Source: Terrimicrobiaceae bacterium (lineage in GTDB: Bacteria > Verrucomicrobiota > Verrucomicrobiia > Chthoniobacterales > JAATET01). From it: DNA of 35,250 nt. The DNA is taken from the NCBI GenBank assembly GCA_028713285.1, contig JAQTOP010000032.1, forward strand, positions 1 through 35,250. The letters run 5' to 3'. A program made the position numbers and the translations under genes. Under the pieces are notes generated by a model. It saw nothing but the letters and a program-made list of their open reading frames with translations. It did not search any database and was not told where the DNA came from. This document shows, piece after piece, positions 3-27,921 of this stretch; position 1 is the stretch's first letter; each line of letters opens with the position of its first letter.

Positions 3-806
3 CTGGATCGGGCGCTCGCCGACGCGGAGCGCGGGCTGGGCGGGCGGGGCATCGTGCTCGATGGGGACGCCGCGGCGCATCTCGCGACGATCAGCGATGG
101 CGATGCGCGCAAATGCCTCAACGCGCTCGAACTCGCGGCGCTCACCACGCCGGCGGATGCGGGCGGCGCGATTCGCATCACGCTTGCAGTGGCCGAGGAG
201 AGCATCCAGCGCAAGGCGGTGGTATATGACGGCGACGGCGACGCGCACTACGACACGATCAGCGCGTTCATCAAGAGCATGCGGGGGAGCGATCCCGACG
301 CGGCGATCTACTGGCTGGCGAAGATGATCTACGCCGGCGAGGATCCGCGATTCATCGCGCGGCGCGTGGTGATTTGCGCAAGCGAGGATGTGGGTCTTGC
401 GGACTCGAACGCCCTTGTGGTGGCGACGGCCGCGGCCCAGGCGGTTGAGCTCGTCGGCCTGCCCGAGGCGCAGCTCAATCTCGCACACGCCGTCCTCTAC
501 ATCGCCACGGCGCCGAAGAGCAATCGCGCAACGCTGGCCATCGGCGCGGCGAATCGCGACGTGGGCGAGGGGCGCACGCTGGCCGTGCCCGCGCATCTGC
601 GCGACGCCCATTACAAGGGCGCGAAGCAGCTCGGCCATGGGGCGGATTACAAATACAGCCACGACTTCGAGGGCGGCTACGTGCCGCAGTCCTACCTGCC
701 CGAGGGCCGCAGGTATTACGAGCCGACCGAAAACGGGATGGAGAAACGGATCAAGGAGCGGCTGGACCATTGGCGCGCGCTGTTCGACGCGGAGCAGGGG
801 CGCTGA
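3..806 (+). CDS. rarA: Replication-associated recombination protein A (RarA/MgsA), C-terminal part
   Basis: The reading frame is open from the window edge, so the AAA+ Walker motifs lie outside. The 267 visible residues are the lid and C-terminal tetramerisation domain of the RarA/MgsA/WRNIP1 family. They include the sensor-2 stretch ISDGDARKCLNALE, the SDPDAAIYWLAKM and GEDPRFIARR segments, ASEDVGLAD, and the ending YKYSHDFEGGYVPQSYLPE. The family acts at stalled replication forks with SSB and RecA. An internal GTG at 54 is in frame but the conserved sequence extends before it, so the gene really begins upstream of the window. The 48-base gap to the next gene shows no clear terminator. Confidence 0.93.
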   Translation: MDRALADAERGLGGRGIVLDGDAAAHLATISDGDARKCLNALELAALTTPADAGGAIRITLAVAEESIQRKAVVYDGDGDAHYDTISAFIKSMRGSDPDAAIYWLAKMIYAGEDPRFIARRVVICASEDVGLADSNALVVATAAAQAVELVGLPEAQLNLAHAVLYIATAPKSNRATLAIGAANRDVGEGRTLAVPAHLRDAHYKGAKQLGHGADYKYSHDFEGGYVPQSYLPEGRRYYEPTENGMEKRIKERLDHWRALFDAEQGR

Positions 807-3812: not shown

Positions 3813-5333
3813 TCAGTGGTCGGGGAGGCGATAGAGCGTGAGGTGAGGCTGGAGGTATTGGAGCGTGCCTGCCGGGCAGTCGAAGAGCAGTTCGCCCTCC
3901 GAAAAGAGCCGCTCGTAAAACGCGCGCCGCCTGGTGTAGTCAGCGGCGCCGTCCGCCGTGGCGGTGTGGTCCGTCAGGAAAAAGCGCCCGTAGTCACCCT
4001 CGGCGACGGCGACGTAGCGCACTCCCTGCGCCCGCAGCGCGTCGATCGTGCCCTCATCGGCGGCGAACAACTTGCCGCGCAGTTTGTAGGGCACGCCAAG
4101 AGCCTGGAGGTTCACCCGCTTGTCCTGCACGATCACCGTGCCCTGGGGGACATGAGTGCCGAGATAGTCGGCCAGTGCGGCGCGGCCCTCGTGACTGAAT
4201 CCCTCGCAGTAGGCGGTGAATCGCGGCGCCTGCACATACAATGCGGCGACGATGAACGCGAGGCTGAAAAGGCCGGCCCACGTCGAACTCAGGATGGGCC
4301 GGCCATTCCAGCGCCAGCGCGGAAACGCGGCGGCGCCGAATGCCGCGAGCGTAAGCAATATCGCCGTCGCCGGGAGGAAGTAGCGGTGATGGGTCTTCGG
4401 CGAAAAAGAGAGCAGGATGGCGAACGCCAGCGGAAACGCCGCGAGCATCCACTCGCTCAAGGCGACCTCGCGGCGGCGCGCAAAAAAGACCACCGCATAC
4501 ATCCCGAGCAGCACCCAGATGGCCGGATTGGTCGCCTCGCGGAAGACGGCGCCATACACGCCATGCGGCACGGAGCGGGTGATGCCCTTGTGGCCCTCAA
4601 GGACGAACTCCATCTCACGCGTGAATCCAGCCGCAAAGGGCCTGGGATGCAGAAGAATCGGGAGATTCGCGGCAGCGAGAACGGCGATCAATCCCAGCAG
4701 GGCGAACGCGGAGGATTTCAGAAATCCGGGGGACCGCCGGTGGTGCCAGAGCATCCACACGGCAAACGGCGCAGCCACCACGCCGATGTATTTGCCAGAG
4801 ATCGCAAGGCCCAGCGCGGCGCCGAGCAGGAACGCCCGGCGCAAACATGGCACGCGATCGAAAAGAGTGAGCGCGAGAAAAAATCCGCTCAGTCCGAACA
4901 GCAGGGCGGGATCTTCCTTGAAGTAGTGCGCGAGCTCGAACAGCTCGTGGTTGGTCACCAGCAGCGCGCCGGCGGCGAATGCGGCCATCGGCCCGGCGAC
5001 GATCGAGGCGAGAAGGACGAGAAAATACACCGCGCCGCTTGTGAAGAGGGCGGAGACCCAACGGCCCGCGACGGTGACGGCTTCCGTTTCCTCGTTCGTT
5101 CCCGCGACGGTCATCAGGAGCCGCGTCGCCGCGATCATCAGCATGGGATGATGAAAATTATATTCGCCGGTGATGATCTGGCGCGCCTTCGACGGCTCGT
5201 CGGGATGGTAGGCGGAAGGAAACGTATTCGACTGCGTGCAAATCCCGAGCATGAGGAGCGCGAAGGCGGCGGCGAGGATGCGCGAACGCCAGGTCGTGTT
5301 GCCGGTCGATGGATAGGAAATGGAAAGCGCCAT
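3813..5333 (-). CDS. GT39-type membrane glycosyltransferase (ArnT/PMT-like), copy 1
   Basis: A 506-residue polytopic membrane protein of the dolichyl-phosphate-mannose protein mannosyltransferase/ArnT fold, which moves a sugar from a polyprenyl carrier to a periplasmic acceptor. After the first helix the conserved acidic loop is YHPDEPSKARQ (HPDE at 43-46), the position of the catalytic acid in GT-C enzymes. A second loop carries AHYFKEDPALLFG (135-147). About ten helices lead to a soluble C-terminal domain with QDKRVNLQALG and GTIDALRAQGVRYVAVAEGDYG. It shares these motifs with the protein at 6245-7810, so the two are paralogues. Donor and acceptor cannot be told from the sequence. It starts divergently from the secreted protein gene at 5464. 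Confidence 0.85.
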   Translation of the reverse strand: MALSISYPSTGNTTWRSRILAAAFALLMLGICTQSNTFPSAYHPDEPSKARQIITGEYNFHHPMLMIAATRLLMTVAGTNEETEAVTVAGRWVSALFTSGAVYFLVLLASIVAGPMAAFAAGALLVTNHELFELAHYFKEDPALLFGLSGFFLALTLFDRVPCLRRAFLLGAALGLAISGKYIGVVAAPFAVWMLWHHRRSPGFLKSSAFALLGLIAVLAAANLPILLHPRPFAAGFTREMEFVLEGHKGITRSVPHGVYGAVFREATNPAIWVLLGMYAVVFFARRREVALSEWMLAAFPLAFAILLSFSPKTHHRYFLPATAILLTLAAFGAAAFPRWRWNGRPILSSTWAGLFSLAFIVAALYVQAPRFTAYCEGFSHEGRAALADYLGTHVPQGTVIVQDKRVNLQALGVPYKLRGKLFAADEGTIDALRAQGVRYVAVAEGDYGRFFLTDHTATADGAADYTRRRAFYERLFSEGELLFDCPAGTLQYLQPHLTLYRLPDH

Positions 5334-5342
5334 GTCGTGCGG

Positions 5343-5362
5343 GGGAGTAATTACCTACTCCC
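5343..5362. promoter_or_regulatory. Perfect inverted repeat in the divergent gap
   Basis: GGGAGTA and TACTCCC pair perfectly around the six-base spacer ATTACC. The site sits 10 bases upstream of the minus-strand GT39-type gene and about 100 bases upstream of the plus-strand pectate-lyase-like gene. No T-run follows on either strand, so it is not a terminator. An operator for a dimeric regulator or a 5' leader hairpin is possible. Confidence 0.4.
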
Positions 5363-5463
5363 GTCAGCAAATACGCTCAAAAAAAGTGGCTTGCCCGGCC
5401 GGCGGTCCGACGGCGAGGATTTGCCCTCGCACCGGCGGGCGACTCCTCCGCAACGAGCCACCC

Positions 5464-6234
5464 ATGAAATTTACGAGTTCCATTCATCTCGCAGCGCGTT
5501 TTGCGGGACTGGCCGGATGTCTGGCCCTCACGATGACGAGCGCATTCGCCGATGGGGAAAGCGCCGAGGCCCTCGGCCAAATGTTGAAGAAGAAGCCGGC
5601 AAAGATTCGGAAGATCAACGCCATCCAGTATTTTCCGCAGGATGGACGGCGCGTGACGTTCGGAATGGACGGGTTGCTGTGGAAGGGGCCGGGAGACTGC
5701 AAGAGCCAGAGGGAGGCAATGTCTGCCATCATGGAGCTCGATGGAAAGGGCGTGACGGTGCGCCGGGCTTACATCCTCGAAGCGCCCGATGGGGTGCACG
5801 TGAAAAATAGCGATTGCGTGATCGAGAACCTCGTGTTTCCCGACGTATGCGAGGATGCGATCACGGCCGACAACGCCGACCGGCTCGTGATCCGGAATTG
5901 CGTGTTTCGCGGCGCGGATGACAAGGCGATCCAGTTGAATCGCGGACGCGACATCCTGATCGAGAATTGTTACTTCGAAAGCTGCGCGAAGCCGGTGCGC
6001 GTGAAGGCGGGCGTGACCGTCACGGTGCGCAACTGCGTGGCGAAGGACTCGTCGGTTTTCGTGCTGGCCGATGGCGACGGAGCGGTCGCGACCGTGGAGA
6101 ATAACCGCGTCGAGAAGAGCAGGCATTTCGTGGGCGCCAAGAAAGGGGCGACGATCCGTCTGGGAGAGAACCAGACTTCGCAAATCAAGCTTGGCAACGA
6201 GATCGTGAGCGGCGGCAGGATCGTCGGGCCGTAG
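5464..6234 (+). CDS. Secreted right-handed beta-helix protein, pectate lyase family 3-like
   Basis: A 256-residue protein with a Sec signal peptide (about residues 1-27, basic start, hydrophobic core, cleavage near SAFADG). The mature part is a repeating beta-helix. The stretch VIENLVFPDVCEDAITAD and then FRGADDKAIQLN match the core of polysaccharide lyase family 3, where acidic residues bind calcium and the lysine of the DK pair lies at the active site. A later RVKAGVTVTVRNC rung completes the helix. Length agrees with PL3 enzymes (about 200-250 residues). It may cleave pectate or another uronate polymer, but only the fold is well supported. It stands alone on the plus strand, with its 3' end 10 bases from the convergent copy-2 GT39-type gene. 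Confidence 0.8.
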   Translation: MKFTSSIHLAARFAGLAGCLALTMTSAFADGESAEALGQMLKKKPAKIRKINAIQYFPQDGRRVTFGMDGLLWKGPGDCKSQREAMSAIMELDGKGVTVRRAYILEAPDGVHVKNSDCVIENLVFPDVCEDAITADNADRLVIRNCVFRGADDKAIQLNRGRDILIENCYFESCAKPVRVKAGVTVTVRNCVAKDSSVFVLADGDGAVATVENNRVEKSRHFVGAKKGATIRLGENQTSQIKLGNEIVSGGRIVGP

Positions 6235-6244
6235 CCGCGGCCGG

Positions 6245-7810
6245 TCACGGAGCGGGGCGCACGTCGAAAAGGATGAGCCCCTGGCGGACATACGCGGTCT
6301 TGCCGGCGCGCGCCTCCCAGAGCCGTTTTCCCTGCTTGAACAACTGCCGGTAAAAAGCGACGCGCTGGGCGGTGGCCGGGGAGTCCCAGCCCGTCGTATG
6401 CTCGCCGGCGGAAAAATAGATGCCCCAGTCGCTCTCCGCGACGGCGATGTGCGTGACGCCTCGGGAGCGCAATGCGTCCAGCGTGCCAAGGTCGGCGACC
6501 GGTCCCAGCTTCGATGGAGACAGAATTTTCTGGGCGAAACGAAGATTTTGAACGTTCTCGTCGGGCCGGCTTTCGTTGGGAAGCTTCACCTGCTTGTCCT
6601 GCGCGATGACGGCGGAGGCGGGCAGGCGCTCGATGATGAAGCGAGCGAGCTCCCGCCGCGTGTCGGTCCGGAAATCCGCCTGCAATTCCGCCAGCGCGGG
6701 AAGGTTGGCAGAGATCATCCAGACGCCGCCCGCGATGACGACGACCCATTCCGCGCACCGGCGAGGAGCCGGCGCGGGGATGCGGGACGCCACGAGGGCG
6801 GCCGTGCGTCCGAGGCCGACGGCCGCAAGCGCGGCGAGCATCGCGGCGAGTGGATCAAAATAACGCAACGCCACCTTTCCCGAGAAGCTGGTCGCGATCC
6901 AGTATACGCCCGGCATCAACACAATCGCGATCTCGACGGACCGCGGACGGCGGCGCTGAAAGGCCGGTGAAAGCAGGCCCAGCACGGCAAACACGAGAAT
7001 GACAACCGGCGTTTCGCGCAGCATCGCCCGCCAGAGATAGCTGTTGGGGATGCGCTCGGAGACGCCCGTGGGCTGCTCCTGGACCTTTTGAATCTCCGAG
7101 CCGAGGCCGGTGACGAAGTCCGCCAGGCCGAAAAGGATTTGATAATTGATCGCCGCCATCGCCAGGGCAAAAACGCCGAAGGCCGTGCCAACGGAGCGGC
7201 GCGCGCTCCATGTCACTTCGCCCGGTGCGCGCGAGATTTTCCGATGCAGGAAAAGCAATCCAACGGGCAGGAGGAGGATTCCGACGTATTTCGCGGAGGC
7301 CGCGAGCGCCAGCGCCAGGCCGAGAGCGCAAATGCTCGTCCGATTCGGACGGCGATCCAGCGTGACTATCGCGGCCGTGCAGGCGGCGAAGCCGAAAATG
7401 AAGACGGCATCCTCCTTGAAATGATGCGCCGCTTCCGTCACGAGCGGCGTGGAAGCAATCAGCAGGCCGGCGGCGAGACCGGCGGCCGGGCCCGCGAGCC
7501 AGACGACGGCGATCGCGAGCAGCGCGGCGGCTGCTGCGGCGAAGATTGCCGATACCCATCGACCGACCACGACGACCTCCTGCGGGCTGCGACGCGCGCC
7601 AGTGAGATTTGCGGCGACGGAGACCGTGTTCAGCAGGAGTTGCGGGTGATTGAAGTTTCGAGTGGCCTTGCGCACCTGCCGCACTTTGCCGGGTTCATCG
7701 GGGTGATAGTAAAAGGGATACGTGTTGTCCCGTGTGAAAAGGCTCAGCGCGACCGCGAACGTCACAAGAACGACGAGCCACGTGATTGCCGGGTGGGACG
7801 ACGCCTGCAT
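6245..7810 (-). CDS. GT39-type membrane glycosyltransferase (ArnT/PMT-like), copy 2
   Basis: A 521-residue polytopic protein with the same plan as the one at 3813-5333. The first periplasmic loop is YYHPDEPGKVRQV (HPDE at 36-39), followed by NFNHPQLLLN, VVGRWVSAIF and AHHFKEDAVFIFG (128-140). It then has eight to ten further helices and a C-terminal domain with QDKQVKLPNE and GTLDALRSRGVTHIAVAESDWG. The role is transfer of a lipid-linked sugar outside the cytoplasmic membrane; substrates are unknown. The ATG at 7810 begins one base after the TAG of the upstream gene, which implies translational coupling. A longer in-frame start at 7867 would overlap that gene. Confidence 0.85.
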   Translation of the reverse strand: MQASSHPAITWLVVLVTFAVALSLFTRDNTYPFYYHPDEPGKVRQVRKATRNFNHPQLLLNTVSVAANLTGARRSPQEVVVVGRWVSAIFAAAAAALLAIAVVWLAGPAAGLAAGLLIASTPLVTEAAHHFKEDAVFIFGFAACTAAIVTLDRRPNRTSICALGLALALAASAKYVGILLLPVGLLFLHRKISRAPGEVTWSARRSVGTAFGVFALAMAAINYQILFGLADFVTGLGSEIQKVQEQPTGVSERIPNSYLWRAMLRETPVVILVFAVLGLLSPAFQRRRPRSVEIAIVLMPGVYWIATSFSGKVALRYFDPLAAMLAALAAVGLGRTAALVASRIPAPAPRRCAEWVVVIAGGVWMISANLPALAELQADFRTDTRRELARFIIERLPASAVIAQDKQVKLPNESRPDENVQNLRFAQKILSPSKLGPVADLGTLDALRSRGVTHIAVAESDWGIYFSAGEHTTGWDSPATAQRVAFYRQLFKQGKRLWEARAGKTAYVRQGLILFDVRPAP

Positions 7811-7811
7811 G

Positions 7812-9563
7812 CTATCGGAGTTGTCCGGGAACGACCAACGTCGCCACCGGTCGCGCCTGCGAGTCATGGGTCCTTACTTCGATGTGAAGGTCGCCAGCGG
7901 GTTTGCCCGCCAGAGGCACGATCACCGCATTGCCAGCGATGAGGCTGGTAAGTGAGCGGTCGGTTCCCAGGGCGGCTGTGACCTTCGCGTCGCCGATCGC
8001 CCGGTCGAAAAATACCACCACGGAATGCGCCGAAGCGGAGATCGCGAAAGTCCCGGCGAACTTTCCCCGGGCGCCGGGACTTGGAGCGAGTGCCGGTCGC
8101 TGCGCTCCGGGTGGCATCGCGTAATTCATGGCAATCACGCGAATCGATCCCGGAACGCCCAATTCGACGCCCCGCGAGCTTGCCCGCCGCGCCTCAAAAT
8201 CGCGCGCGTCGTTGCGCGCGCCATTCGCCCAAATCCGGTGCGCATCCACGATGAGCGTTCGCGATTCTTCAAAATCGGTCCCTGCGGATTTTACGACGGC
8301 ACGGCCGGGAGCGAGGTAATAGCTTAGATACTTGCCGCTGTTCCCGTAGTCGATCGAGACGGTCGTTGGGAATGCCGCATCGATGGCGGCGGCTGCGAGC
8401 GACCAGTTTTCGATGGGCGTATAGCTGAAGTGCGCGACGGCCGTCGCGGACCTGGCGCCGAACCACAGCGCGGCCGCGATGGCCGCGAGTCGGACGATGG
8501 GCCGCGCGGGAAACAGGCGGAGCAGCTCGCCCGCCGCCATCACCGCGCAAAATGCCAGCGGCAGCATCGCGCACGTCGCCATCCGCAGCGGGGGCGTTTG
8601 CAGAAACAGCATCGCGCCGAAAAATGCCAGCGTCGCGGTCATCAGGGCGCGCAGCGCCGGGGCGACCGGACGGCCCGGCGGCACGGCGAAGCTCGACAGA
8701 CAGGCGCCGGCGAAGAGAAGCAGGCTCTGCCACGACGGACCGGTGAATCCATAAACTCTCAACGCGCGGAAAATGCCCTCCACACTTTGGAAATCGCCCT
8801 GGGGCTTGTCCGCAAATTCGTGCGTCTCGTGAAACAGTTGCGTGAGAACCGGCGCGTAGAGCAGGAGGACGGACGCCGCTGCGCCGACGCCCACCAAAAA
8901 GACCGGCCAGCGGCGATCCAGCAGCCAGATGGAGAGAAGGAGCGTTCCGCCGAAGAAAAGATACCCCGGGACGGTGTAAGTGCCGAGCGCGGTAAGTCCG
9001 CCGAGTGCGATGCACCAGCCGAGCCGGCGCGTTTGAAAAAACGCGACGGTGCAGGCGCAGGAGAGCGCCGCCGCGAGGCACAGCAGGCCGTAGCCTCGCG
9101 CGAGCAGGCTCATTTCGATGAGCGCCGCGGAGCCGGCCCATGCGGCCATCCAGAGCGCGCTCTCGAGGTAACGCCGGGTGCGAACGGCAAAGATCCCCAT
9201 CGTTCCGATGACTCCGATGGTGGCGAGATAGCTGAGGATTCGCGCGCGCAACGGCTCGATGCTCTCGCGACCGGGGAGGATCGAGTTCAGCAGATTAAAG
9301 AGAATGTGATTCTTTGGCGCGTTGTAATGCGTGGCGACGTGCAGCGGCCCCTTCGCGCTGTAGGAAAAGATCGTCCCAAACTCGTCCGTGGTGAGCGATG
9401 TGGTTGCGAGCGCGTGAAACAACAGCGCGACGTGCGCGAGAGCGGTCGCCGCAACCACGGCGGCAAGAATCGGCTCGAGGCCCGCGAAACGTCCCGGAGT
9501 CGGGGCGGCGGAGGATGGCGGTCGCGAAGGCAAGCGGGCATGTGAGCAAATCGGCGCGGCCAA
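7812..9563 (-). CDS. Large membrane protein, GT39-like glycosyltransferase
   Basis: About 583 residues. The first loop after helix 1 reads TTSLTTDEFGTIFSYS, where the DE pair occupies the place of the GT-C catalytic acid. THYNAPKNHILFNLLNS follows, similar to the NxxHxLL segment of other family members. Some ten transmembrane helices are visible, then a periplasmic C-terminal region with a beta-rich ending. It probably transfers a sugar from a polyprenyl phosphate. No ATG exists in frame near the N-terminus; TTG at 9563 or 9533 are the best candidates, so the start is uncertain. The frame stays open to 10625, but that extension lies antisense to the GT2 gene and is not coding. It is coupled to the gene at 6245-7810. 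Confidence 0.75.
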   Translation of the reverse strand: MAAPICSHARLPSRPPSSAAPTPGRFAGLEPILAAVVAATALAHVALLFHALATTSLTTDEFGTIFSYSAKGPLHVATHYNAPKNHILFNLLNSILPGRESIEPLRARILSYLATIGVIGTMGIFAVRTRRYLESALWMAAWAGSAALIEMSLLARGYGLLCLAAALSCACTVAFFQTRRLGWCIALGGLTALGTYTVPGYLFFGGTLLLSIWLLDRRWPVFLVGVGAAASVLLLYAPVLTQLFHETHEFADKPQGDFQSVEGIFRALRVYGFTGPSWQSLLLFAGACLSSFAVPPGRPVAPALRALMTATLAFFGAMLFLQTPPLRMATCAMLPLAFCAVMAAGELLRLFPARPIVRLAAIAAALWFGARSATAVAHFSYTPIENWSLAAAAIDAAFPTTVSIDYGNSGKYLSYYLAPGRAVVKSAGTDFEESRTLIVDAHRIWANGARNDARDFEARRASSRGVELGVPGSIRVIAMNYAMPPGAQRPALAPSPGARGKFAGTFAISASAHSVVVFFDRAIGDAKVTAALGTDRSLTSLIAGNAVIVPLAGKPAGDLHIEVRTHDSQARPVATLVVPGQLR

Positions 9564-9626
9564 GTAAACTCTGGCCCGGTCGCGGACGTTCGCGGTAGAA
9601 CCTGCGTTCTGCGCCGCGCTTCCGCC

Positions 9627-10571
9627 ATGAAGTTGATCATCCAGATTCCATGCTACAACGAGGAGCAGACCATCGGCGTCGCGCTCGCCGAGCTGCCGCG
9701 CGATCTGCCGGGCATCGACCGGATCGAATGGCTCGTCGTGAACGACGGGAGCTCGGACCGCACGTCGCAGGTGTGCGCCGAGCTGGGCGTGGACCACGTG
9801 ATCGACCGTCCGCACCTCGGCCTGGCCCGCACGTTCATGGCCGGCATCGAGGCCAGCCTTGCGCGCGGGGCGGACATCATCGTCAACACCGACGCGGACA
9901 ATCAATACAACGCCGCCGACATACCGAAGCTCATCGAGCCGATCTTGAAGGGCGAGGCGGACATGGTGATCGGAGCGCGGCCGATTCGCGAGATCAGCCA
10001 CTTCTCGCCGGTGAAGAAACTGCTGCAATGCGTCGGCAGTCTCGTCGTGCGCCTTGCCAGCGCGACGACGGTCGCCGACGCGCCGAGCGGCTTCCGCGCG
10101 ATCAGTCGCGAGGCGGCCATGCAAATGAACGTTTTCAACGAATACACCTACACCCTCGAGACGATCATCCAGGGCGGGCAAAGGAACCTCCGCATGGTTT
10201 CCGTGCCCGTGCGGACGAATGGATTTTTGCGCCCGTCGCGCCTTTTCAGGAGCATCCCCGCCTACGTCTATCGCTCGATTTTCACGATCTTCCGCATCTT
10301 CGTCGTCTATAAGCCGCTGCGATTTTTTGCCCTGCTCGGGGCGATTCCGTTCGGGCTGGGCGCGGTATTGATGGCGCGCTGGGTGTGGATCTGGCTGGTC
10401 GTGGATTCCGAACGGGCCCATGTCCCCAGTCTCATCGCCGCCAGCCTGCTCGTGGTCGTCGGTGTGCAGGCCTGGGTGCTCGGATTCATCGCCGATCTCA
10501 TCGCGGTGAACCGCCGCCTGCTCGAAGATATTCAACTCCGCCTTCGCCGCAGCGAATTCAACCGTCCGTGA
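9627..10571 (+). CDS. GT2 family glycosyltransferase (polyprenyl-phosphate sugar synthase type)
   Basis: A 314-residue enzyme with a GT-A domain (about 1-210) and two C-terminal membrane helices (about 231-257 and 267-290). The start IIQIPCYNEEQTI, the NDGSSD nucleotide-binding motif (39-44), DAD metal motif in NTDADNQYN (89-91) and the acceptor-side RTNGFLRPSRLFRS are typical of DPM1/ArnC-like enzymes. Such enzymes load a sugar from a nucleotide donor onto undecaprenyl or dolichyl phosphate at the inner face of the membrane. It would supply the GT39-type proteins in this window with their lipid-linked donor. It heads a four-gene operon, and its TGA overlaps the GTG of the next gene. Confidence 0.92.
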   Translation: MKLIIQIPCYNEEQTIGVALAELPRDLPGIDRIEWLVVNDGSSDRTSQVCAELGVDHVIDRPHLGLARTFMAGIEASLARGADIIVNTDADNQYNAADIPKLIEPILKGEADMVIGARPIREISHFSPVKKLLQCVGSLVVRLASATTVADAPSGFRAISREAAMQMNVFNEYTYTLETIIQGGQRNLRMVSVPVRTNGFLRPSRLFRSIPAYVYRSIFTIFRIFVVYKPLRFFALLGAIPFGLGAVLMARWVWIWLVVDSERAHVPSLIAASLLVVVGVQAWVLGFIADLIAVNRRLLEDIQLRLRRSEFNRP

Positions 10572-12178
10572 CCGTCCCCTCCGCCCGCGACCGCTTTGCC
10601 CGCGAGGCTCTGCGCTGGATTCCAAAAATCCTCACGCTGCAGGATCGCAACCGCCACAGCCCGACCTACGGCTGCTTCGACCGGAACTACTGGCAATACA
10701 AGATCATCGATTTCCCGAGCGGGATGGCGCAGGAGTTCACCTATCCGCTCGCGCTCGCATGGGCCTGCGGCGTCGAGGGCAACGCTTTCCACGGGCAGGC
10801 CGCCCTGCGGGACTGGGCCGAGGCGGGCATGGTCTTCGCGGCGCGGAGCGCGCACGCCGACGCGTCGTGCGACGATTATTTTCCCTACGAGAAGGCGGGC
10901 GGCGCGGCGGCATTCTCGCTGCTCGCGTGCGCGGAGAGTTACAAATTGCTCGGGCTGCAGAACTGCGAGGTGCTGCAGTTCTTCGAGCGTCGCGCGAACT
11001 GGCTGGCGCATCACAACGAGAGCGGCCAGCTCACGAACCACCAGGCGCTCATCGTGCGGTGTTTCGATTGCGTCGGCGATCTGCTCGGCTCGGACCAATG
11101 GGCAAAGGCCCGGCAGCAGCGGCTCGATCGCGTGCTCGCGTGGCAGAATGCCGAGGGCTGGTTCCAGGAATACGAGGGCTGCGACCCCGGCTACCACACG
11201 CTCACCATTTCGCTGCTCGCGGAGATTTACGAAAGGACGCCGACGCCCGGGTTGCGCGACTCCCTCGCGCGCGCGGTCGCCCTCGCGGCGGAGTTCGTGC
11301 ATCCCGACGGATCCTTCGGCGGCGAATACGCGAGCCGCAACACCTACAACTTTTTCCCGCACGGCTTCGAGCTCTTCGGCCGCCACGATCCGTCGGCGCT
11401 CGCAATCAACGACCGCTGCCTCGCCGGCATCGCCGCCGGCCTCGGCCCGTGCCATGCGGACGATCACATCGTCGGCCATCACACGTGGAACTACCTGCTC
11501 GCATGGCGCGATTTCGTGCCGGAGCGGCCCGCGAAGCCGCCTCGCGCCGAGGGGCGCGCGCATTTTCCGAATGCGGGCCTGCTGATCGACCGGCGCGGCG
11601 GCGCGGAGCTCTACGTCGCGCTGAACAAGGGCGGCGTCTTCAAATTCTTTCGCGATGGAAAACTCGTCGCGTCCGACACCCAGGTCTCTCTCGTGCTCAA
11701 GGATCGGAAGTCGCGCAACGCCGTCGCGCATCTGGTCGGCGATTACCCGCACGAGATCGAGGGCGGTCGCATCGCCGTGCGGGGCGAGATGGGCTGGGCC
11801 AAGCAGAAAAAAATGACGCCGTTCAATCTCATCGTGCTGCGCCTCATCATGCTCGGCGGCGGCCGGTTTTTTCCGGACCTCATCCGCAAGCTGCTGCAAA
11901 AACTGCTCATCACCGGACGAAAGCCCGCGCCCTTCCGCTTCGAACGCGAGTTTGTGTGGGACGACGGCCGCCTCACCGTGCATGATCGCGTCGAACCGAC
12001 GGGAAACGGGGATTGGAAGGCCGTCCGCCAGGCCGGCATCGGCTGCGATCAGACATCGATCTACGTCGTGATGAGCCGCACCTTCCAGGCCGGGCAAATG
12101 CTGCCGTGGATCGACCTCACCGAGCGCGTCGCGAAGCTCCGGCCCGGCGGGGCGCTCGAAATCACCCGTTCGCTGTGA
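10568..12178 (+). CDS. Unassigned 536-residue protein, alpha/alpha-barrel (heparinase II/III-like) suspected
   Basis: No confident family assignment. The N-terminal two thirds (about 1-320) looks like helical hairpins of an (alpha/alpha)6 toroid: repeated amphipathic helices and conserved aromatic or His motifs such as FPYEKAGGAAAFSLLACAES, HHNESGQLTNHQA, FQEYEGCDPGYHTLTIS and DGSFGGEYASRNTYNFFPHG. The last 150 residues look beta-rich (RRGGAELYVALNKGGVFKF, ERFVWDDG-type strands). This plan resembles heparinase II/III and related lyases or hydrolases acting on uronates. It has no signal peptide and no membrane helices, so it would act in the cytoplasm. The GTG start overlaps the GT2 stop by four bases (GTGA), and the stop overlaps the next GTG. 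Confidence 0.7.
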   Translation: MTVPSARDRFAREALRWIPKILTLQDRNRHSPTYGCFDRNYWQYKIIDFPSGMAQEFTYPLALAWACGVEGNAFHGQAALRDWAEAGMVFAARSAHADASCDDYFPYEKAGGAAAFSLLACAESYKLLGLQNCEVLQFFERRANWLAHHNESGQLTNHQALIVRCFDCVGDLLGSDQWAKARQQRLDRVLAWQNAEGWFQEYEGCDPGYHTLTISLLAEIYERTPTPGLRDSLARAVALAAEFVHPDGSFGGEYASRNTYNFFPHGFELFGRHDPSALAINDRCLAGIAAGLGPCHADDHIVGHHTWNYLLAWRDFVPERPAKPPRAEGRAHFPNAGLLIDRRGGAELYVALNKGGVFKFFRDGKLVASDTQVSLVLKDRKSRNAVAHLVGDYPHEIEGGRIAVRGEMGWAKQKKMTPFNLIVLRLIMLGGGRFFPDLIRKLLQKLLITGRKPAPFRFEREFVWDDGRLTVHDRVEPTGNGDWKAVRQAGIGCDQTSIYVVMSRTFQAGQMLPWIDLTERVAKLRPGGALEITRSL

Positions 12179-13746
12179 GCCGCGCCGCCGCTTTTTTCAA
12201 TCGTCATCCGGCGGTCCGCGACGCGCTGCTCTGGGGGTTGCCGGCGGTGGCGTTTGGCCTGGTGCTTCGCGCCATGCTGCTGGCCTGTCAGCCGCTCGCC
12301 TTTTGGGGCGCGGACTCGGAATCCTACTACAGCTTCGCGCACCGCCTGCTTCACGACGGCGTGGCATCCATCCCGGCGAAGCGGCGCTTTTTGTATCCGA
12401 TCCTTTTGCTCCCGGTCGCCGCGCTGCCGGGCGCGCCCCTGCGCTCGCTCGCATGGATTCAGCATGCCATGGGACTTCTGACGATCTTCCCTCTCGCGTA
12501 TGCCGTGCGGAAAATTTTCGACGGCTGGCGGTGGTGGGTCGTTCCGATCACGGCGATCTATGCCGGCCTGCCGATCCTTCTGTGGTATGAGCAGGAGCTG
12601 CTGGCGGAGGCGTTCTTTTTCGCGACGCTCACGTGGGCGTTCGCCGCATGGGTGGCATGGGAATCGCGTGCGCATCGCGGCGACCGCGCTCCGGATTTGT
12701 GGTGGATTTTTTTCGCGTGCCTCGCGCTGTGCGCCCTCACGAAGCCGGCCTCCCGGTTTTTCTGGCCCGGACTGCTCGTTGGTCTTTGCTATGTCCGCGC
12801 CTGGCGGCTGTTGCGCTGGCCGCAATGGACCGCGTTCGCCGCGCTGATCGCGGCGACCTTCGCGATGGGCGAGGGAAGTCAGGCGTCGCGTCTGCTTTAC
12901 ACCTCCGCGTTTCCGCTCACGGTGCTCGACTCGCCGCGGCACGCGGACCTCAAGGCCGAGATCGCGCCATTCGTGCGGACCGCTCGCGGGCACATCGATT
13001 ATTATTACGAGGAGGACGAGGGGCCCAAAGCCTTCCTGCGCGGCGGCTTTCGCTCGGGCCCCTTTCCCGCGTGGCAGGCCATCGAGCGCAAGAGCGATGC
13101 CGCGCTCTCCGCCGCGATGCGCGATCTCGCCATCGAGGCCGCGCTTTCGAAGCCGCACCTGCTCCTCTACATCGCGCTCCAGCGCGCCGTCGCCGCGCTG
13201 AACTGGACCGTCTTCAAGCTGGACCGTTTCGATGCCGGCTACTTCGCGGAAAAGTATCGGCCGGATTTCGTCAATCTGGTGAGAGAGGGCCGGGTGAAGA
13301 AGCTGGCGATGGCGCGAACGGCCTTCGGACTGCCGCCGTCCGCCGGGAGTCCGCAGTTCGCCGACATTCTTGAGCGAACCCGGGCGCCCGGGCGCGATGG
13401 ATTCGAGCAGGTAATGCGGGGATATGTGGAATGGGTGTCGGCTTTGGGCGTGTTTGTCGCCGAGCCGGTTGTCGGGGATTTTCGCCGCACGCTCTGGCAA
13501 ATGACGCCCACGCCGCTTGGCTGGGTCCTGCTCGCCGGCTGTCTGCTGTCGATTGCGCTGCCCGCGTTGCGCCCGACGCTCGGCGTCTGGCTGGTGATCG
13601 TGATCGGTTATGCGATAGGGGTCCACCTCCTTGGCGGTTCGAACCCCCGCTTTCTTGCCCCCGCCTGGCCGCCCCTTCTGCTCGCGCTCTTCGCGCCGCT
13701 GGAAATCCTCTTTCGCCTTGCGCGCCGGCGGCCGGTTTTTCGATGA
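12175..13746 (+). CDS. Polytopic membrane protein, GT39/GT-C-like glycosyltransferase
   Basis: A 523-residue protein with about ten membrane helices. The first long loop has FWGADSESYYSFAHRLLHDG, with an acidic D-x-E cluster where GT-C enzymes hold their catalytic acid. RRFLYPILLLP and a second loop WYEQELLAEAFFF follow. A large hydrophilic domain occupies about residues 250-420, and the C-terminal helices end with GGSNPRFLAPAWPPLLLAL, typical of ArnT-like proteins. It probably transfers a sugar from a lipid carrier. Start is GTG at 12175, overlapping the preceding TGA; the end overlaps the next ATG by four bases. These overlaps support a single operon with the GT2 gene. Confidence 0.8.
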   Translation: MSRAAAFFNRHPAVRDALLWGLPAVAFGLVLRAMLLACQPLAFWGADSESYYSFAHRLLHDGVASIPAKRRFLYPILLLPVAALPGAPLRSLAWIQHAMGLLTIFPLAYAVRKIFDGWRWWVVPITAIYAGLPILLWYEQELLAEAFFFATLTWAFAAWVAWESRAHRGDRAPDLWWIFFACLALCALTKPASRFFWPGLLVGLCYVRAWRLLRWPQWTAFAALIAATFAMGEGSQASRLLYTSAFPLTVLDSPRHADLKAEIAPFVRTARGHIDYYYEEDEGPKAFLRGGFRSGPFPAWQAIERKSDAALSAAMRDLAIEAALSKPHLLLYIALQRAVAALNWTVFKLDRFDAGYFAEKYRPDFVNLVREGRVKKLAMARTAFGLPPSAGSPQFADILERTRAPGRDGFEQVMRGYVEWVSALGVFVAEPVVGDFRRTLWQMTPTPLGWVLLAGCLLSIALPALRPTLGVWLVIVIGYAIGVHLLGGSNPRFLAPAWPPLLLALFAPLEILFRLARRRPVFR

Positions 13747-14735
13747 AGCGCCTGCTCTCACTCGTCATCAGCCTCGGCATCCTCGCGGTGCTCTACTGGC
13801 GCATCCATCCGGAGAAGGTCATTCCGGTTTTCGCGAATTGCTCGGTGCCCTGGCTCATCGCGAGCCTGCTGATGGTCGCGCCGCTCACGCTGCTCACCTC
13901 GGCCCGGCTGTGCCAGCTCATGCCGCGCGCGCATCCGCTGGGCTTCCTCGAGGCGAACCGCCTCATCCTCCTCGCGAGCGTGCTCAATCTCGTGCTGCCC
14001 TCGAAAATGGGCGACATGGCGAAGTCGGTCTTCATGGCGGATCGCGGCCACCTGCGCGGCCCGCTTGCGCTGGCGCTTGTCGTCTTCGAGAAGGCCTGCG
14101 ACCTGCTCTCGCTGCTCGTCTGGTGCGTCTTCGGGCTGCTGCTTTATCCCAGCAAGGACGCGCTCTTTTGGGCGATGACGCTTGCGGTGGCGGCGGGATT
14201 TCTCGGTCTCGCGCTGCTGCTCGGCTCGAAGACGTTCGCCGGCTTCTGCTTCGGGCTGGGGGAGCGATTTGCGCCGGGAAAGGTGCGCGGAAAACTCGCC
14301 GCATTGCACGCCTCGTGGATCGAAATGCACGGCTATTTCTGGCGGGACAAGGCGCAGCTCGCGCGTATCGCGGCGAACTCGCTGTTCATCTGGTTTCTGC
14401 ACCTCGTGCAGATCTGGATGTTCACGCTCGCTCTGCGGACCACCGTGCCGTTCCTCGCAAATCTCGCACTCTCGCCGCTGGCGATCCTCGCCGGACTGCT
14501 GCCGCTCACCTTCGCGGGTGTCGGCACGCGCGACGCGGCGCTCGTCTTCTTCTACCAGCCCTACATGCCGGCCGCCGCGGGTGCCGCGCTCGGGGTGCTT
14601 TGCACGCTACGCTACGTGCTGCCCGCGCTGCTCGGATTGCCATTTCTCGGCCCTGCCATCGCGGAGATGGGTGGGCTGAAAAGACTCATGCAGCGGAGGG
14701 CCCCGCAGGGCGAATCCGGAGCGTCGTCTCGATGA
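13743..14735 (+). CDS. Flippase-like / LPG synthase TM family membrane protein (UPF0104)
   Basis: A 330-residue protein with about eight helices, belonging to the lysylphosphatidylglycerol synthase transmembrane/UPF0104 (AglD-like) family. Diagnostic stretches are NLVLPSKMGDMAKSVFMADR near residue 85, VVFEKACDLLSLL, and PLTFAGVGTRDAALVFFY near residue 260. Family members are found beside polyprenyl-sugar synthases and are suspected to flip or transfer lipid-linked sugars or to act on lipids. The start ATG overlaps the previous stop (ATGA). It closes the operon begun at 9627. No clear terminator follows. Confidence 0.87.
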   Translation: MKRLLSLVISLGILAVLYWRIHPEKVIPVFANCSVPWLIASLLMVAPLTLLTSARLCQLMPRAHPLGFLEANRLILLASVLNLVLPSKMGDMAKSVFMADRGHLRGPLALALVVFEKACDLLSLLVWCVFGLLLYPSKDALFWAMTLAVAAGFLGLALLLGSKTFAGFCFGLGERFAPGKVRGKLAALHASWIEMHGYFWRDKAQLARIAANSLFIWFLHLVQIWMFTLALRTTVPFLANLALSPLAILAGLLPLTFAGVGTRDAALVFFYQPYMPAAAGAALGVLCTLRYVLPALLGLPFLGPAIAEMGGLKRLMQRRAPQGESGASSR

Positions 14736-15394: not shown

Positions 15395-16353
15395 ATGAAA
15401 AAGAGCAGATTTAGGGAAGAGCAGATTATAGGAATATTAAGAGACGGGCAGAGCGGAATGACGGTGAAAGCGGTGTGCGCAAAGCACAACGTGGCGGAGC
15501 GGACGTATTACGGATGGAAACGCAAATACGAAGGAATGGAAGGGACGGAGGTGCGCAAAGCGAGGGCGCTGGAGGAGGAGAATGGGCGCCTTGAAGAGGC
15601 TGGTGGCCGACCAGGCGGTGCAGATTCAGATCCTGAAAGAGGTGAACGCAAAAAAATGGTAAGCCCGTCGGCGAAAAGGCGGGCGGTAAAAATGGAAGTG
15701 GAAGCCGGGGTTGGAGGAACGGCTGGAGCCTGCCGGGCGCTGGGCTTGGCGCGCTCGAGTTACTACCGGATTTCGACCCGGAGCCCGGAGCGGGAGGCAC
15801 GGAGAGGGGAGATCGTGGCGTTGAGTGAAAAGCATCCGCGCTACGGGTATCGAAGGATCACGGCGATGCTGGATCGGGCGCAGCCGGGCCGGCGGATCAA
15901 TGTGAAAGCCGTGCAGCGGGTGCGAAGCAAGGAAGGCTTGCAGGTGCGGCGCAAACAGCGGCGGATGAAGCGCCTGGGGCTCTCGACCAGCGAACGGCAG
16001 CGGGCGCAGGCCAACAACGCGGTGTGGAGCTGGGACTTTGTGTATGACCAGACCGAGAACGGGGAAAGCTTCCGCGTGCTCACGTTGATTGACGAATACA
16101 ACCGGCGGTGCTTGGCCACGCATGTCGGGCGCTCGATCAAGGCCCGGGACGTCATCACCGTGGTCGAGGCGGCGTTCTTGCGTTACGGCAAGCCGCTTCA
16201 TCTGCGCAGCGACCGCACAGCTCCCTCGGTTATCAAACCCCCGAGGAGTATGCCGCGCGCGCCGTCAACTTGCTCCGGTCGGCCTCCGGCCTCCCTCCGC
16301 AAGTTGACGGCGAATCCTCAACAAACCCGAAAACCATAGCCGAACTACATTGA
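15395..16353 (+). pseudogene. IS3-family transposase OrfA-OrfB, frameshifted and deleted
   Basis: OrfA begins MKKSRFREEQIIGILRDGQ with a helix-turn-helix and WKRKYEGMEG. After LEEENGRL an extra base near 15591-15593 shifts the frame; the expected leucine zipper KRLVADQAVQIQILKEVNAK lies one frame over and ends at TAA 15660-15662. Seven A (15650-15656) form the usual -1 frameshift site, and the OrfB ATG is at 15656. OrfB has the HTH_21 region and the first catalytic Asp in WSWDFVYDQTENG. At about 16210-16213 the sequence jumps from HLRSD straight to RPHSSLGYQTP in another frame. About 70 residues are lost, including the DDE glutamate. The protein cannot be an active transposase. Confidence 0.9.
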
Positions 16354-19521: not shown

Positions 19522-20514
19522 CTAGGACGGGTCTTCCCTTGATTTCGCGAGGAACTCTCCAGGCGGCCCCGCCAAATCGTCGATGGCGGAGCGGACGGAT
19601 TCGGTGGAAATTTCCGCCATGGAAGATCGCTGGGGTGCTGAGACCACGCGGGAGTTTGTGCCGCGGGGACGCCAGTGGAAGGGGTCCGTGGGGCCAAACA
19701 GGACGACGAGCGGAGTGCCGAGGGCGTCGGCGAAATGCGCGGGAGCCGAATCGACCGCGCAAAGGAGGCGCGCCCGGGCGAGGACGGCGGCGGTGCCGAG
19801 CAGGCTGAGCTTGCCCGCGAGATCGAGGCAGTCGCAGCCGGAACATTCGAGGGCGCGCTGGATGGCGTCGAGGTGGGCGCGCTCGGCGGAATCCCGAGCG
19901 CCGGTGAGCACGACGGGCAGGCAGTGGTCGGTGCGGAGGTGGGCGATCACTTCGGCCCAGCGCTCGGGGAGCCAGTATTTCTCGGGGCGGGCGGTCCCGG
20001 CATGAACGACCGCGAATGGGGTGGCGATGCCGCCGGCGGCGAGGGTTTGATCGGCTTCAGCCTGGGCCGCCGCAGGCAGACGCAGGGCGAGGGGGACGTC
20101 TTCGACGTGAATGTCGAGAGCCCGCAACAGGTCGGTGTGGTGATCGGCCGTGTGGCGGTCGCGCACGGAGGAGGCGACGAATTCATTGTAAATCAAACGG
20201 CGCAGCGGCTTGCGCGCAAAGCGGGCCCAGGTGATGCGCCGCGGCGCCCGCGAGAGCGCGGTGACCACGGCGGAGCGGTCGTTGCCGGTGAAGTCGAGAG
20301 CGATGTCGAACCGGGTCGTGGCAAGCGCCCGCCAGAAATGATCGCCGCGGACGAGGATGCGGTCGGCATCGAGCGCGGGTGCGAGCGCGGCGGTCGATGC
20401 GTTGAGGGCGAGGGTGAGACGGGCTTGCGGCGCGTGCTCGCGCAGGGCGGAGAGGACGGGCGTGGTTAGCAGTGTGTCGCCGATGCGCTTGAGCTGGATG
20501 AGGAGGATGCGCAT
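19522..20514 (-). CDS. GT9 family glycosyltransferase (heptosyltransferase-like)
   Basis: A 330-residue GT-B enzyme of the ADP-heptose:LPS heptosyltransferase family. The N-terminus MRILLIQLKRIGDTLLTTPV is the family hallmark. The donor-binding half contains VVHAGTARPEKYWLPERW near residue 168 and VDSAPAHFADALGTPLVVLFG plus TDPFHWRP near 260-290. It probably adds a heptose or related sugar to lipopolysaccharide core. The ATG at 20514 lies four bases after the stop of the upstream GT4 gene, so the two form an operon. Which heptosyltransferase (WaaC, F or Q) it equals is not decidable. Confidence 0.9.
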   Translation of the reverse strand: MRILLIQLKRIGDTLLTTPVLSALREHAPQARLTLALNASTAALAPALDADRILVRGDHFWRALATTRFDIALDFTGNDRSAVVTALSRAPRRITWARFARKPLRRLIYNEFVASSVRDRHTADHHTDLLRALDIHVEDVPLALRLPAAAQAEADQTLAAGGIATPFAVVHAGTARPEKYWLPERWAEVIAHLRTDHCLPVVLTGARDSAERAHLDAIQRALECSGCDCLDLAGKLSLLGTAAVLARARLLCAVDSAPAHFADALGTPLVVLFGPTDPFHWRPRGTNSRVVSAPQRSSMAEISTESVRSAIDDLAGPPGEFLAKSREDPS

Positions 20515-20518
20515 GGGG

Positions 20519-21703
20519 TCAGCCTTTCATCCGCAGCGCGCGGTCGTAGGCGTCGAGGAGCCGTTCGCGAAAATGGTCCCACGTGAATTGTGCGGCGACG
20601 CGTTCGCGGCCCGCCGCGCCGAGACGGGCGGCGAGATCGCGGTCGAGGTGGAGCCGCTTGATCGCGGTCGCGAGCGCATCGGGATCGTTCGGCGGGATGA
20701 GGAGTCCGTTTTCGCCGTCGCGGACGACATCGCCGGCCTCGCGGGTGGTGATCTGCGGCAGGCCGCAGGCGGCGGCCTCGTAGGTCGCCTTCGCGCTGCC
20801 TTCGCATTCGCTGGGCAAAATATGGACGGACGCCTGACGCAGCTCGGCGGCGACATCGCGCACGAAGCCGCGCACAATCACGCCGCGCGGGGCGTCGGCG
20901 AGCAACGGGGCGATTTCCCGGGTGGGCTGGCCGACGAGCACGAGTTCGGCATCGGCGAGATTCAATTGCTTCCAGACCGCGAGCAGATGGTGGACGCCTT
21001 TGCGGCGGCTGAGCGAGCCGACAAAAATGGCGCGGAATTTTTCCGGCGGTGCGGGGGCGGGGGTGAACTTTTCGACATCCACCCCGCGCGAGGTGAGGAA
21101 GAGTTTTTCCTCGGGAATGCCGGCAACGAGGAAGGTTTCCCGCGCCTTTTCGGAGAGCACGAGCAGCAGCGTGGCGCGGGCGTATTCCTCCATGATCTGC
21201 TGGCGGGTGACGAGCAGGCGGTTCAACACGCTGCGGGGGAAGGGCGCGGCGTCGCGCTGGATTTCGCTCCAGGTTTTGTCCTTTTTGATTTTTCCCTTGT
21301 TTCGATGCCAGGTGGGAATCTCGAGCACCGACGGAATGCCGAGGCGGTTTGCAGCGCGCAGGGATTCGATGCAGTCGCCGGACCATGTGTGCAGGAGGTC
21401 GCAACGGGGCCGCCCACTGGCGAGCCGCCGGGCCGTGCGCCGGTCGAGGGCATGCTTTTTCGCGCCGATGTAATACTCGCGCGGCAGGAAGGAGAGCAGG
21501 CGCGCGGGGTGGCGGTCGAGGAGTTCGATGCGCGCGGAGGGAATCGCGGATTGATGGTTCGCGAAGGCAATGGCACGGGCGAGAAAACCGCCGCGCTCCG
21601 CGGCAAGGAGTGACTCCGCGGCGACCTGGTCGAGGCCGGCGCCGCCAATGCCGGCGGCAATCGAGTAAAGCAGGGCGCGGGGCTGGCGGCGGTCGGTGGT
21701 CAC
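20519..21703 (-). CDS. GT4 family glycosyltransferase
   Basis: A 394-residue GT-B enzyme. The N-terminal Rossmann half carries IGGAGLDQVAAESLLAAERGG; the C-terminal half has AIFVGSLSRRKGVHHLLAVWK and the donor-binding segment LPSECEGSAKATYEAAACGLPQ, whose EGSAKATYEA corresponds to the EGFGLxxxEA (E-x7-E) motif of the family. Such enzymes act in the cytoplasm on lipopolysaccharide or other surface glycans. GTG at 21703 opens the frame; no stronger start is close. It is divergent from the second GT4 gene, with only 52 bases between the two starts. That gap holds a perfect inverted repeat. Confidence 0.9.
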   Translation of the reverse strand: MTTDRRQPRALLYSIAAGIGGAGLDQVAAESLLAAERGGFLARAIAFANHQSAIPSARIELLDRHPARLLSFLPREYYIGAKKHALDRRTARRLASGRPRCDLLHTWSGDCIESLRAANRLGIPSVLEIPTWHRNKGKIKKDKTWSEIQRDAAPFPRSVLNRLLVTRQQIMEEYARATLLLVLSEKARETFLVAGIPEEKLFLTSRGVDVEKFTPAPAPPEKFRAIFVGSLSRRKGVHHLLAVWKQLNLADAELVLVGQPTREIAPLLADAPRGVIVRGFVRDVAAELRQASVHILPSECEGSAKATYEAAACGLPQITTREAGDVVRDGENGLLIPPNDPDALATAIKRLHLDRDLAARLGAAGRERVAAQFTWDHFRERLLDAYDRALRMKG

Positions 21704-21720
21704 GAACGGGCGAATTCTAC

Positions 21721-21741
21721 GGCGCTTTTTTCAAAAGCGCC
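21721..21741. promoter_or_regulatory. Perfect 9-bp inverted repeat between divergent GT4 genes
   Basis: GGCGCTTTT and AAAAGCGCC pair perfectly around TTC. It lies 17 bases from the minus-strand GTG at 21703 and 14 bases before the plus-strand ATG at 21756. In this short divergent gap it could be an operator or a leader hairpin acting on both genes. Read on either strand it carries T and A runs inside the stem rather than after it, so a normal terminator is unlikely. Confidence 0.45.
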
Positions 21742-21755
21742 CTACCATTTTGACG

Positions 21756-27878: not shown

Positions 27879-27921
27879 TGCCGCGTTGTATGGGGCGCGG
27901 ATTTGAGGTTCAAGGATGGCG

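Follow-up and report, generated by a model that had tools for sequence, protein, structure and literature searches.

The DNA analysed here, a 35,250-nucleotide stretch from a Terrimicrobiaceae bacterium (contig JAQTOP010000032.1; hereafter the window), makes up the entire contig C58 of a 3.53 Mb genome in 157 contigs, and carries on its + strand a run of four genes that an initial annotation had read as a translationally coupled operon for glycan assembly. The four open reading frames (ORFs) and the GTGA, GTGA and ATGA overlaps between them that were described there are indeed present in the sequence. The genes are named below GT2, AA (the alpha/alpha protein), gene 3 and gene 4 (aa, amino acids; DPMS, dolichol-phosphate-mannose synthase; GT, glycosyltransferase):

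9627..10571, + strand: GT2, polyprenyl-phosphate-sugar synthase-like glycosyltransferase, 314 aa (PF00535, DPMS/ArnC homology)
10568..12178, + strand: AA, predicted from its model to be a toroid plus beta-sandwich enzyme of the uronate lyase/dermatan sulfate epimerase fold, 536 aa, GTG start
12175..13746, + strand: gene 3, putative GT-C fold glycosyltransferase (model, invariant acidic residues), 523 aa, GTG start
13743..14735, + strand: gene 4, flippase-like membrane protein, 330 aa (PF03706, TIGR00374)
10568..10571, + strand: GTGA stop/start overlap of genes 1 and 2, from the sequence
12175..12178, + strand: GTGA stop/start overlap of genes 2 and 3, from the sequence
13743..13746, + strand: ATGA stop/start overlap of genes 3 and 4, from the sequence

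Reading the junctions as GTGA overlaps requires GTG starts for genes 2 and 3, and four-base gene overlaps are common in prokaryotes and, taken alone, are weak evidence. ORF length is also a poor proof of coding, because long spurious ORFs are frequent in this GC-rich window (an antisense ORF of 521 aa at 10532-12097 is one example), and it is the existence of homologues on which the coding claim for the four ORFs is based. Pfam matches were obtained for GT2 and the flippase-like protein and for neither gene 2 nor gene 3.

To define which genes are kept together, a contig scan with AA was used, which yielded 104 confirmed relatives, the best 80 of which were kept and their taxon labels sorted by hand. 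These 80 comprised 70 from Cyanobacteria, 5 from Verrucomicrobiota and 1 from Acidobacteria, the rest being two alphaproteobacterial (SAR116 and Propylenella) and two deltaproteobacterial/Thermodesulfobacteriota records; among 97 relatives of the window's genome, itself counted in, AA was present in nine. When the window proteins were mapped onto the 88 loci holding an AA relative, AA was 42-84% identical in all 88, 49 had GT2 (47 at 52% or more, up to 82%, and two at 27-29%) and 47 had the flippase-like protein (46 at 44-83% and one at 32%), in the order GT2, AA, flippase and often adjacent. Gene 3, in contrast, adjoined AA at just two of the 88 loci (tblastn, E ≤ 1e-10), at 61% identity in the same genus and at 35% in genome G032. 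The expectation that the same four genes would recur in other genomes was rejected on this count: the conserved unit is a triad of GT2, AA and the PF03706 flippase-like protein, not a set of four, with AA, for which the initial annotation had offered no explanation, as its hallmark, and it is found in one acidobacterium and a few Proteobacteria besides Verrucomicrobiota and Cyanobacteria. Within the window's genus, G001 keeps the four-gene order, and in G002 and G003 the flippase gene directly follows AA; in the two deltaproteobacterial loci, diverged GT2-like and flippase-like genes adjoin AA. Junctions shorter than 60 nt were counted in relatives at 27 loci for GT2 to AA (excluding row L056, a gene-order artefact) and at 29 loci for AA to flippase, and the start codon overlapped or nearly touched the stop codon in 18 of the former and 18 of the latter.

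Two further ideas about the history of the triad were dropped. Apparent fusions of AA with the flippase or of GT2 with AA in L076 and L047 involve long ORFs that run in another frame than the partner, and a recent transfer between Cyanobacteria and Verrucomicrobiota is at odds with the AA tree (75 rows), which separates the window's genus, family f6 and the cyanobacteria with support; one long-branch SAR116 row sits among the cyanobacteria in this tree. In Moorena, short AA-like matches located 3' of an intact AA (L040 18070-18297; L041 16499-16669 and 18472-18606) are perhaps decayed duplicates.

The members of the triad are not always neighbours. Among the 65 loci flanked on each side by 1.2 kb or more, all three genes were present in 31 and AA stood alone in 23. 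We searched 25 genomes for the partners, namely those of the 23 AA-alone loci together with L067 and L080, where local partners were absent or diverged, and GT2 was found elsewhere in the genome in 24 of 25 and the flippase in 21 of 25, both at 55-68% identity, which means that the genes scatter without loss of the set. Scattering in relatives, named by the initial annotation as the outcome that would speak against it, was therefore borne out as to position (AA alone in 23 of 65) and not as to loss of the set. A parallel pattern was seen in 194 evenly sampled cyanobacterial genomes, with cut-offs of E ≤ 1e-30 for AA, E ≤ 1e-60 for the flippase and E ≤ 1e-120 for a strong GT2 match, the last having been placed after a gap in the list was seen (the preset cut was 1e-60). 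AA was present in 17 genomes, the flippase in 17 and both in 15, while GT2 at E ≤ 1e-120 was present in 17, 16 of them shared with AA, and all three genes occurred in 15 (Fisher P = 2e-18 and 3e-21 for the co-occurrence, uncorrected for shared ancestry). At the preset cut of 1e-60, GT2 was counted in 68 of the 194 genomes.

The two outer members of the triad were assigned by homology. GT2 matched PF00535 (7.6e-21), its nearest solved structures were DPMS (5mlz, 4.5e-13) and ArnC (9hwj, 5.4e-6), its DAD motif aligned with DPMS, and its best NCBIfam model was AglJ (106 bits, under the cut-off of 325). This homology to DPMS and ArnC points to GT2 as a putative polyprenyl-phosphate sugar synthase, in agreement with the lipid-sugar synthase of the initial annotation, and the possible flippase named there also fits, gene 4 having matched PF03706 (4.8e-29) and the NCBIfam model TIGR00374 (49.4 bits, above the cut-off of 43.2). 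For the PF03706 family, a flippase role has been deduced in the portion of PMC5898192 drawn on here.

Gene 3, previously described as a GT-C-like possible transferase, retains that description. Its AlphaFold2 model (pLDDT 91.6) gave VIA matches to Pmt4 (Z 20.4), PglB (19.6), ArnT (18.2) and AftB (15.0), and Asp47 and Glu139 were invariant in gene 3 and 24 relatives, identity within the order being 20-61%; as modelled, gene 3 is predicted to be the GT-C transferase of a three-component glycosylation system. Gene-3 homologues occurred in 17 of the 97 relatives, in all nine genomes with AA compared to 8 of the 88 without (P = 1.7e-8), and G077 carries five of them on the triad's contig. A GT-C-like ORF, defined as at least 380 aa with 7 transmembrane (TM) segments, was present at a distance of up to 6 kb in 18 of the 22 loci with all three genes versus 4 of 21 others (P = 5e-5). 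The Pfam scan covered 47 GT-C-like proteins, that is, 44 of the 50 neighbours (the remaining six being two in L045, one in L047, one in L071 and two in L073) plus three of the window's genus, and returned PMT_2 in 16, PMT in 5 and GT87 in 4, with overlaps possible; at least 4 of the 47 matched unrelated membrane families or transporters that the TM filter had passed. The GT-C partner differs between lineages, and the GT-C end of the proposed system would be exchangeable.

AA itself drew no Pfam match at E ≤ 1, no NCBIfam match above cut-off and, whether searched as a profile or as a single sequence, no match among PDB sequences at E ≤ 10. Across 75 AA members, the best Pfam match was Pec_lyase (5.3e-5), which appeared in 5 of 75 at E ≤ 1, the window's copy having none at that cut-off, and no description of AA was found in the open-licence literature among the top matches listed. 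The AlphaFold2 model of AA (pLDDT 87.7, pTM 0.90) showed a toroid and a beta domain, and Foldseek returned 42 matches at E ≤ 0.001, led by the chondroitin AC lyase 1rwa (9.9e-9, TM 0.57 by query) and including among the other leading matches GAGase II, hyaluronan lyases of polysaccharide lyase (PL) family PL33, exoHep and xanthan lyases. Among the 50 VIA matches listed, human dermatan sulfate epimerase DS-epi1 (6hzn; Z 19.8, root-mean-square deviation (rmsd) 5.9, 433 residues, model range 4..536, rank 37) and the chondroitinase 9o3q (Z 19.5, rmsd 6.9, 409 residues, rank 46) align along the entire AA model, in a list that does not rule out PL8-type or AGE families that it does not name. As predicted by the model, AA has a toroid followed by an antiparallel beta domain, as in the uronate lyase/DS-epimerase superfamily (PL8, PL12, PL21, PL33 and DS-epi1), and it may share part of the chemistry of that fold. 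In its modelled form it resembles the enzyme that makes iduronic acid in animals, and the libraries searched contain no named family specific to it.

The residues and the segment of AA that bear on its function, together with AA2, a paralogue found in another genome, are as follows:

11192..11194, + strand: codon of AA Tyr209 (PGYH), invariant in 75 of 75 rows, aligned with the heparinase catalytic Tyr and kept in AA2
11036..11041, + strand: codons of AA Asn157-His158, invariant in 75 of 75 rows; His158 is Gln in AA2
11798..11917, + strand: AA residues 411-450, modelled as a helical insert in the beta domain, with possible membrane contact
L178:8307-10103: AA2, an AA paralogue in the AA slot, beside an FrhB/FdhB-type Fe-S protein

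The 75-row alignment of AA contains many invariant polar residues. Comparison by hhalign with 32 Verrucomicrobiota heparinases picked by hmmsearch aligned AA residues 139-371 (probability 82.8, E 9.4e-6) and placed Tyr209 on the tyrosine of the heparinase PGYH motif, which in HepIII (4mmh) belongs to the P-x-YH segment. Twenty-one reversed or shuffled controls, which do not address other toroid families such as AGE, reached a probability of at most 0.6, and a strict-pattern selection of the heparinases (2 of the 32 proteins) gave a probability of 0.5 and no useful match. The toroid tyrosine serves as acid/base in PL12, PL21 and PL33 (excerpt of PMC11848413) and the proposed base in DS-epi1 (excerpt of PMC8006597), and judged by alignment AA appears to carry this catalytic tyrosine of the superfamily. 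The spacing from Asn to Tyr is 52 in AA versus 54 in 20 of the 32 heparinases; of these 20, 5 have His and 15 have Trp directly following the Asn. The invariant H388 was considered as a beta-domain catalytic His and dropped, being Ser in AA2 and too far along the chain.

As for its cellular location, no hydrophobic N-terminal segment or signal peptide was seen in the 75 AA rows as aligned, rows which start up to 24 residues late, and after upstream codons were added a hydrophobic stretch appeared in 1 of 75 (L022), ahead of the likely ATG. The insert in the beta domain consists of helices 418-429 and 436-449 (local pLDDT 64-75, then 90); in 39 of the 75 homologues it includes a hydrophobic window, and in the window's copy it is amphipathic, which suits, indirectly, an enzyme at the inner face of the membrane.

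In genome G429, strong GT2 and flippase matches were present and AA was absent at the cut-off. Its operon (L178) is made up, in this order, of GT2, a GT-C, an FrhB/FdhB-type Fe-S protein, AA2 and the flippase. Over 357 residues AA2 shares 27% identity with AA (profile E 1.6e-59), and it retains 61 of the 105 positions identical in at least 74 of 75 AA rows; Asn157, Glu201, Tyr202, Asp206, Tyr209, Arg257, Asp298, His304, Lys354 and GG are kept, and His158, Asp299, Glu253 and His388 differ. The GT-C of this operon is 42-46% identical to the triad-neighbour GT-C of six other loci listed, and its Fe-S protein had no relative among the other loci compared. This one genome suggests that the middle enzyme, and not the loading or flipping step, gets exchanged.

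We propose that the triad and its GT-C form a three-component polyprenyl-phosphate glycosylation system into which a sugar-modifying enzyme, AA, is built, a reading to which we give an even chance; the module is fairly secure, and its chemistry is what we infer. Going by homology, GT2 would load a sugar from a nucleotide donor onto polyprenyl phosphate at the cytosolic face of the membrane, where AA, cytosolic and possibly touching the membrane, would alter the lipid-linked sugar before flipping, with Tyr209 as acid/base. The PF03706 protein, as its family implies, would then move the modified lipid-sugar to the outer face, and the lineage-variable GT-C, as its fold and invariant acidic residues suggest, would attach the sugar to an acceptor lying outside the membrane. 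The pathway sketched in the initial annotation, for adding one sugar outside the membrane, is thereby largely upheld in its synthase, GT-C fold and flippase family, and given up in the notion that the four genes are a conserved set.

This is a known kind of pathway in a new variant, centred on an uncharacterised and strongly conserved enzyme. In the ArnC-ArnD-ArnEF-ArnT lipid A pathway, a GT2 acting on undecaprenyl phosphate (undP), an enzyme for the lipid-linked sugar, a flippase and a GT-C are combined, the same component types as are proposed here, but ArnD is of deacetylase type and ArnEF are small transporters, and an ortholog relation is not claimed. The nearest known design is that of Citrobacter youngae O1/O2 (Kelly et al. 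2024), where, in the part of PMC11127046 drawn on here, extracytoplasmic pentofuranose glycosylation is described with an auxiliary cytosolic epimerase proposed to act on the undP-sugar. Common to both are a lipid-phosphate sugar synthase, a known or putative flippase, a GT-C and a cytosolic enzyme proposed to modify the lipid-linked sugar before export, and we count as a further likeness that exchange of the modifying enzyme changes the sugar; the Citrobacter system, however, uses an unrelated synthase dependent on phosphoribosyl pyrophosphate (PRPP), a MATE flippase and an SDR/DprE epimerase, whereas GT2, PF03706 and a lyase/epimerase-fold protein are found here (same excerpt). DS-epi1 and the PL8, PL12, PL21 and PL33 lyases share the toroid plus antiparallel beta fold, their Y261, Y294 and Y291 corresponding to AA Y209, but are described in the excerpts of PMC8006597 and PMC11848413 with a beta-domain His, a metal site and polymer substrates, whereas AA shows neither that motif nor a signal peptide and lies in a lipid-sugar operon. 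According to the excerpt of PMC13308652, Agl32 of Halobacterium salinarum is a C5-epimerase whose substrate is a lipid-linked glycan that has yet to be exported, and in other haloarchaea genes for AglJ and a flippase lie close by; Agl32 has a helical domain only, AGE-like and without the DS-epi1 residues, and is likened to AA by description, not by sequence.

Several observations weigh against the proposed system or its chemistry. In 51 of the 194 cyanobacterial genomes, those counted for GT2 at the preset cut only, GT2 was 41-56% identical and both AA and the flippase were missing at the cut-offs; except for two, these genomes are 1.6-2.3 Mb in size. This indicates that this kind of GT2 can function without AA. 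The density of GT-C-like ORFs was only modestly raised (0.72 per 10 kb at 0-2 kb versus 0.38-0.42 beyond 6 kb). In AA itself, hhalign sets Asn157 three residues from the heparinase Asn, and the adjacent His158 is replaced in AA2. The beta-domain His and metal ligands of DS-epi1 (H450, H452, E470 and N481) were, by alignment only, without counterpart in AA; the HxHxD stretch of L116, in the heparinase alignment, falls in a gap at AA N353-K354-G-G, near which Lys354 is near-invariant (74 of 75), and no invariant His occurs at AA residues 323-387 in the 75-row alignment. Because this motif falls in an alignment gap and Asn157 is three residues off, AA is not placed in any PL family. As to the substrate, a C5 epimerase requires a uronate. 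An NDP-sugar dehydrogenase was detected in 33 of 34 AA-bearing genomes searched, which says little because 13 of 14 control genomes have one too, and G003 (99% complete, triad present) gave no TIGR03026 or PF03721 match, with no usual UDP-uronate route seen, while G114 holds dehydrogenase fragments only. Of the possible reactions of AA, C5 epimerisation of a lipid-linked uronate is the one we think likeliest, yet because of the lack of a UDP-sugar dehydrogenase match in G003 we rate even this as unlikely.

A further point of the same kind is that the highest VIA Z values for AA belong to AGE-type toroids (Z 21-23, matching residues to about 322 only; 3vw5 at Z 23.2, rmsd 3.1, 296 residues), which, together with the lack of a signal peptide in the AA rows examined, would fit an enzyme acting before or apart from the lipid stage, on a nucleotide sugar, a free sugar or a cytosolic glycan, in the manner of AGE-family 2-epimerases, with GT2 using the product. 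This superposition concerns the toroid; AGE enzymes are single toroids and AA has a second, beta-sandwich domain; 6hzn and 9o3q cover the C-terminal half of AA, and a hydrophobic or amphipathic insert is conserved there, so that we consider an AGE-like role improbable. The degradative character of the closest Foldseek matches (1rwa, PL33, exoHep), the additional matches to GH127 and GH88 toroids and the retained lyase catalytic Tyr raise another possibility, that AA is an editing lyase or glycosidase which strips stalled or wrong lipid-linked sugars or oligosaccharides and recycles polyprenyl phosphate while making no new sugar. Beta-elimination by a lyase, however, depends on a uronate linked through O4, and a lone lipid-linked sugar offers none; the strict, high-identity co-occurrence with GT2 and the flippase suggests a required step rather than housekeeping, which makes editing an equally improbable role.

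It could also be that nothing more than an ordinary conserved glycan cluster is involved, in which GT2 makes a lipid sugar, a different lipid is the cargo of the flippase-like protein, and AA works on a polymer of the capsule or sheath, leaving the lipid-linked sugar untouched. The genes are unlinked in many cyanobacteria (AA alone in 23 of 65 loci) and the window contains further glycan genes, both of which speak for such a cluster; one-to-one co-occurrence even where the genes are unlinked, tight operons in several phyla and the swap of AA2 into the same slot nevertheless argue against it, and we think this explanation, too, is rather unlikely.

If AA does act as the built-in modifier of a polyprenyl-phosphate glycosylation system, several phyla, many filamentous cyanobacteria included, would share a dedicated route that puts an altered sugar outside the cell, and the chemistry of polymer epimerases and lyases would be applied to a monosaccharide bound to a membrane lipid. 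A family without a Pfam entry would then be tied to a step of surface glycan assembly, and human dermatan sulfate epimerase could be compared with a bacterial enzyme. More speculatively, and with the balance tilted against it, AA may found a family of cytosolic membrane-associated enzymes acting on single sugars linked to polyprenyl phosphate, whose product, an L-iduronate-type donor, say, or one inverted in some other way, would be flipped and used by an interchangeable GT-C, with AA2-type paralogues swapped in and changing the sugar.

The surroundings of the operon contain further genes. Just upstream lie membrane proteins at 3813-5333 (- strand) and 6245-7867 (- strand) with PMT_2/PMT matches (GT-C type), a right-handed beta-helix/pectate-lyase-like protein at 5320-6234 (+ strand) among these GT-C genes, and a membrane protein without a Pfam match at ~7812-9599 (- strand), homologues of which adjoin the triad in L072, L083 and L084. 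An IS3-type transposase remnant is located 3' of the operon at 15395-16339 (+ strand), where the integrase core match breaks off early and the remainder apparently runs on in a different frame. More glycan genes are found further along the contig, at 19522-22844 and 27916-28734, comprising a GT9 (- strand), two GT4 (one per strand) and a sulfotransferase.

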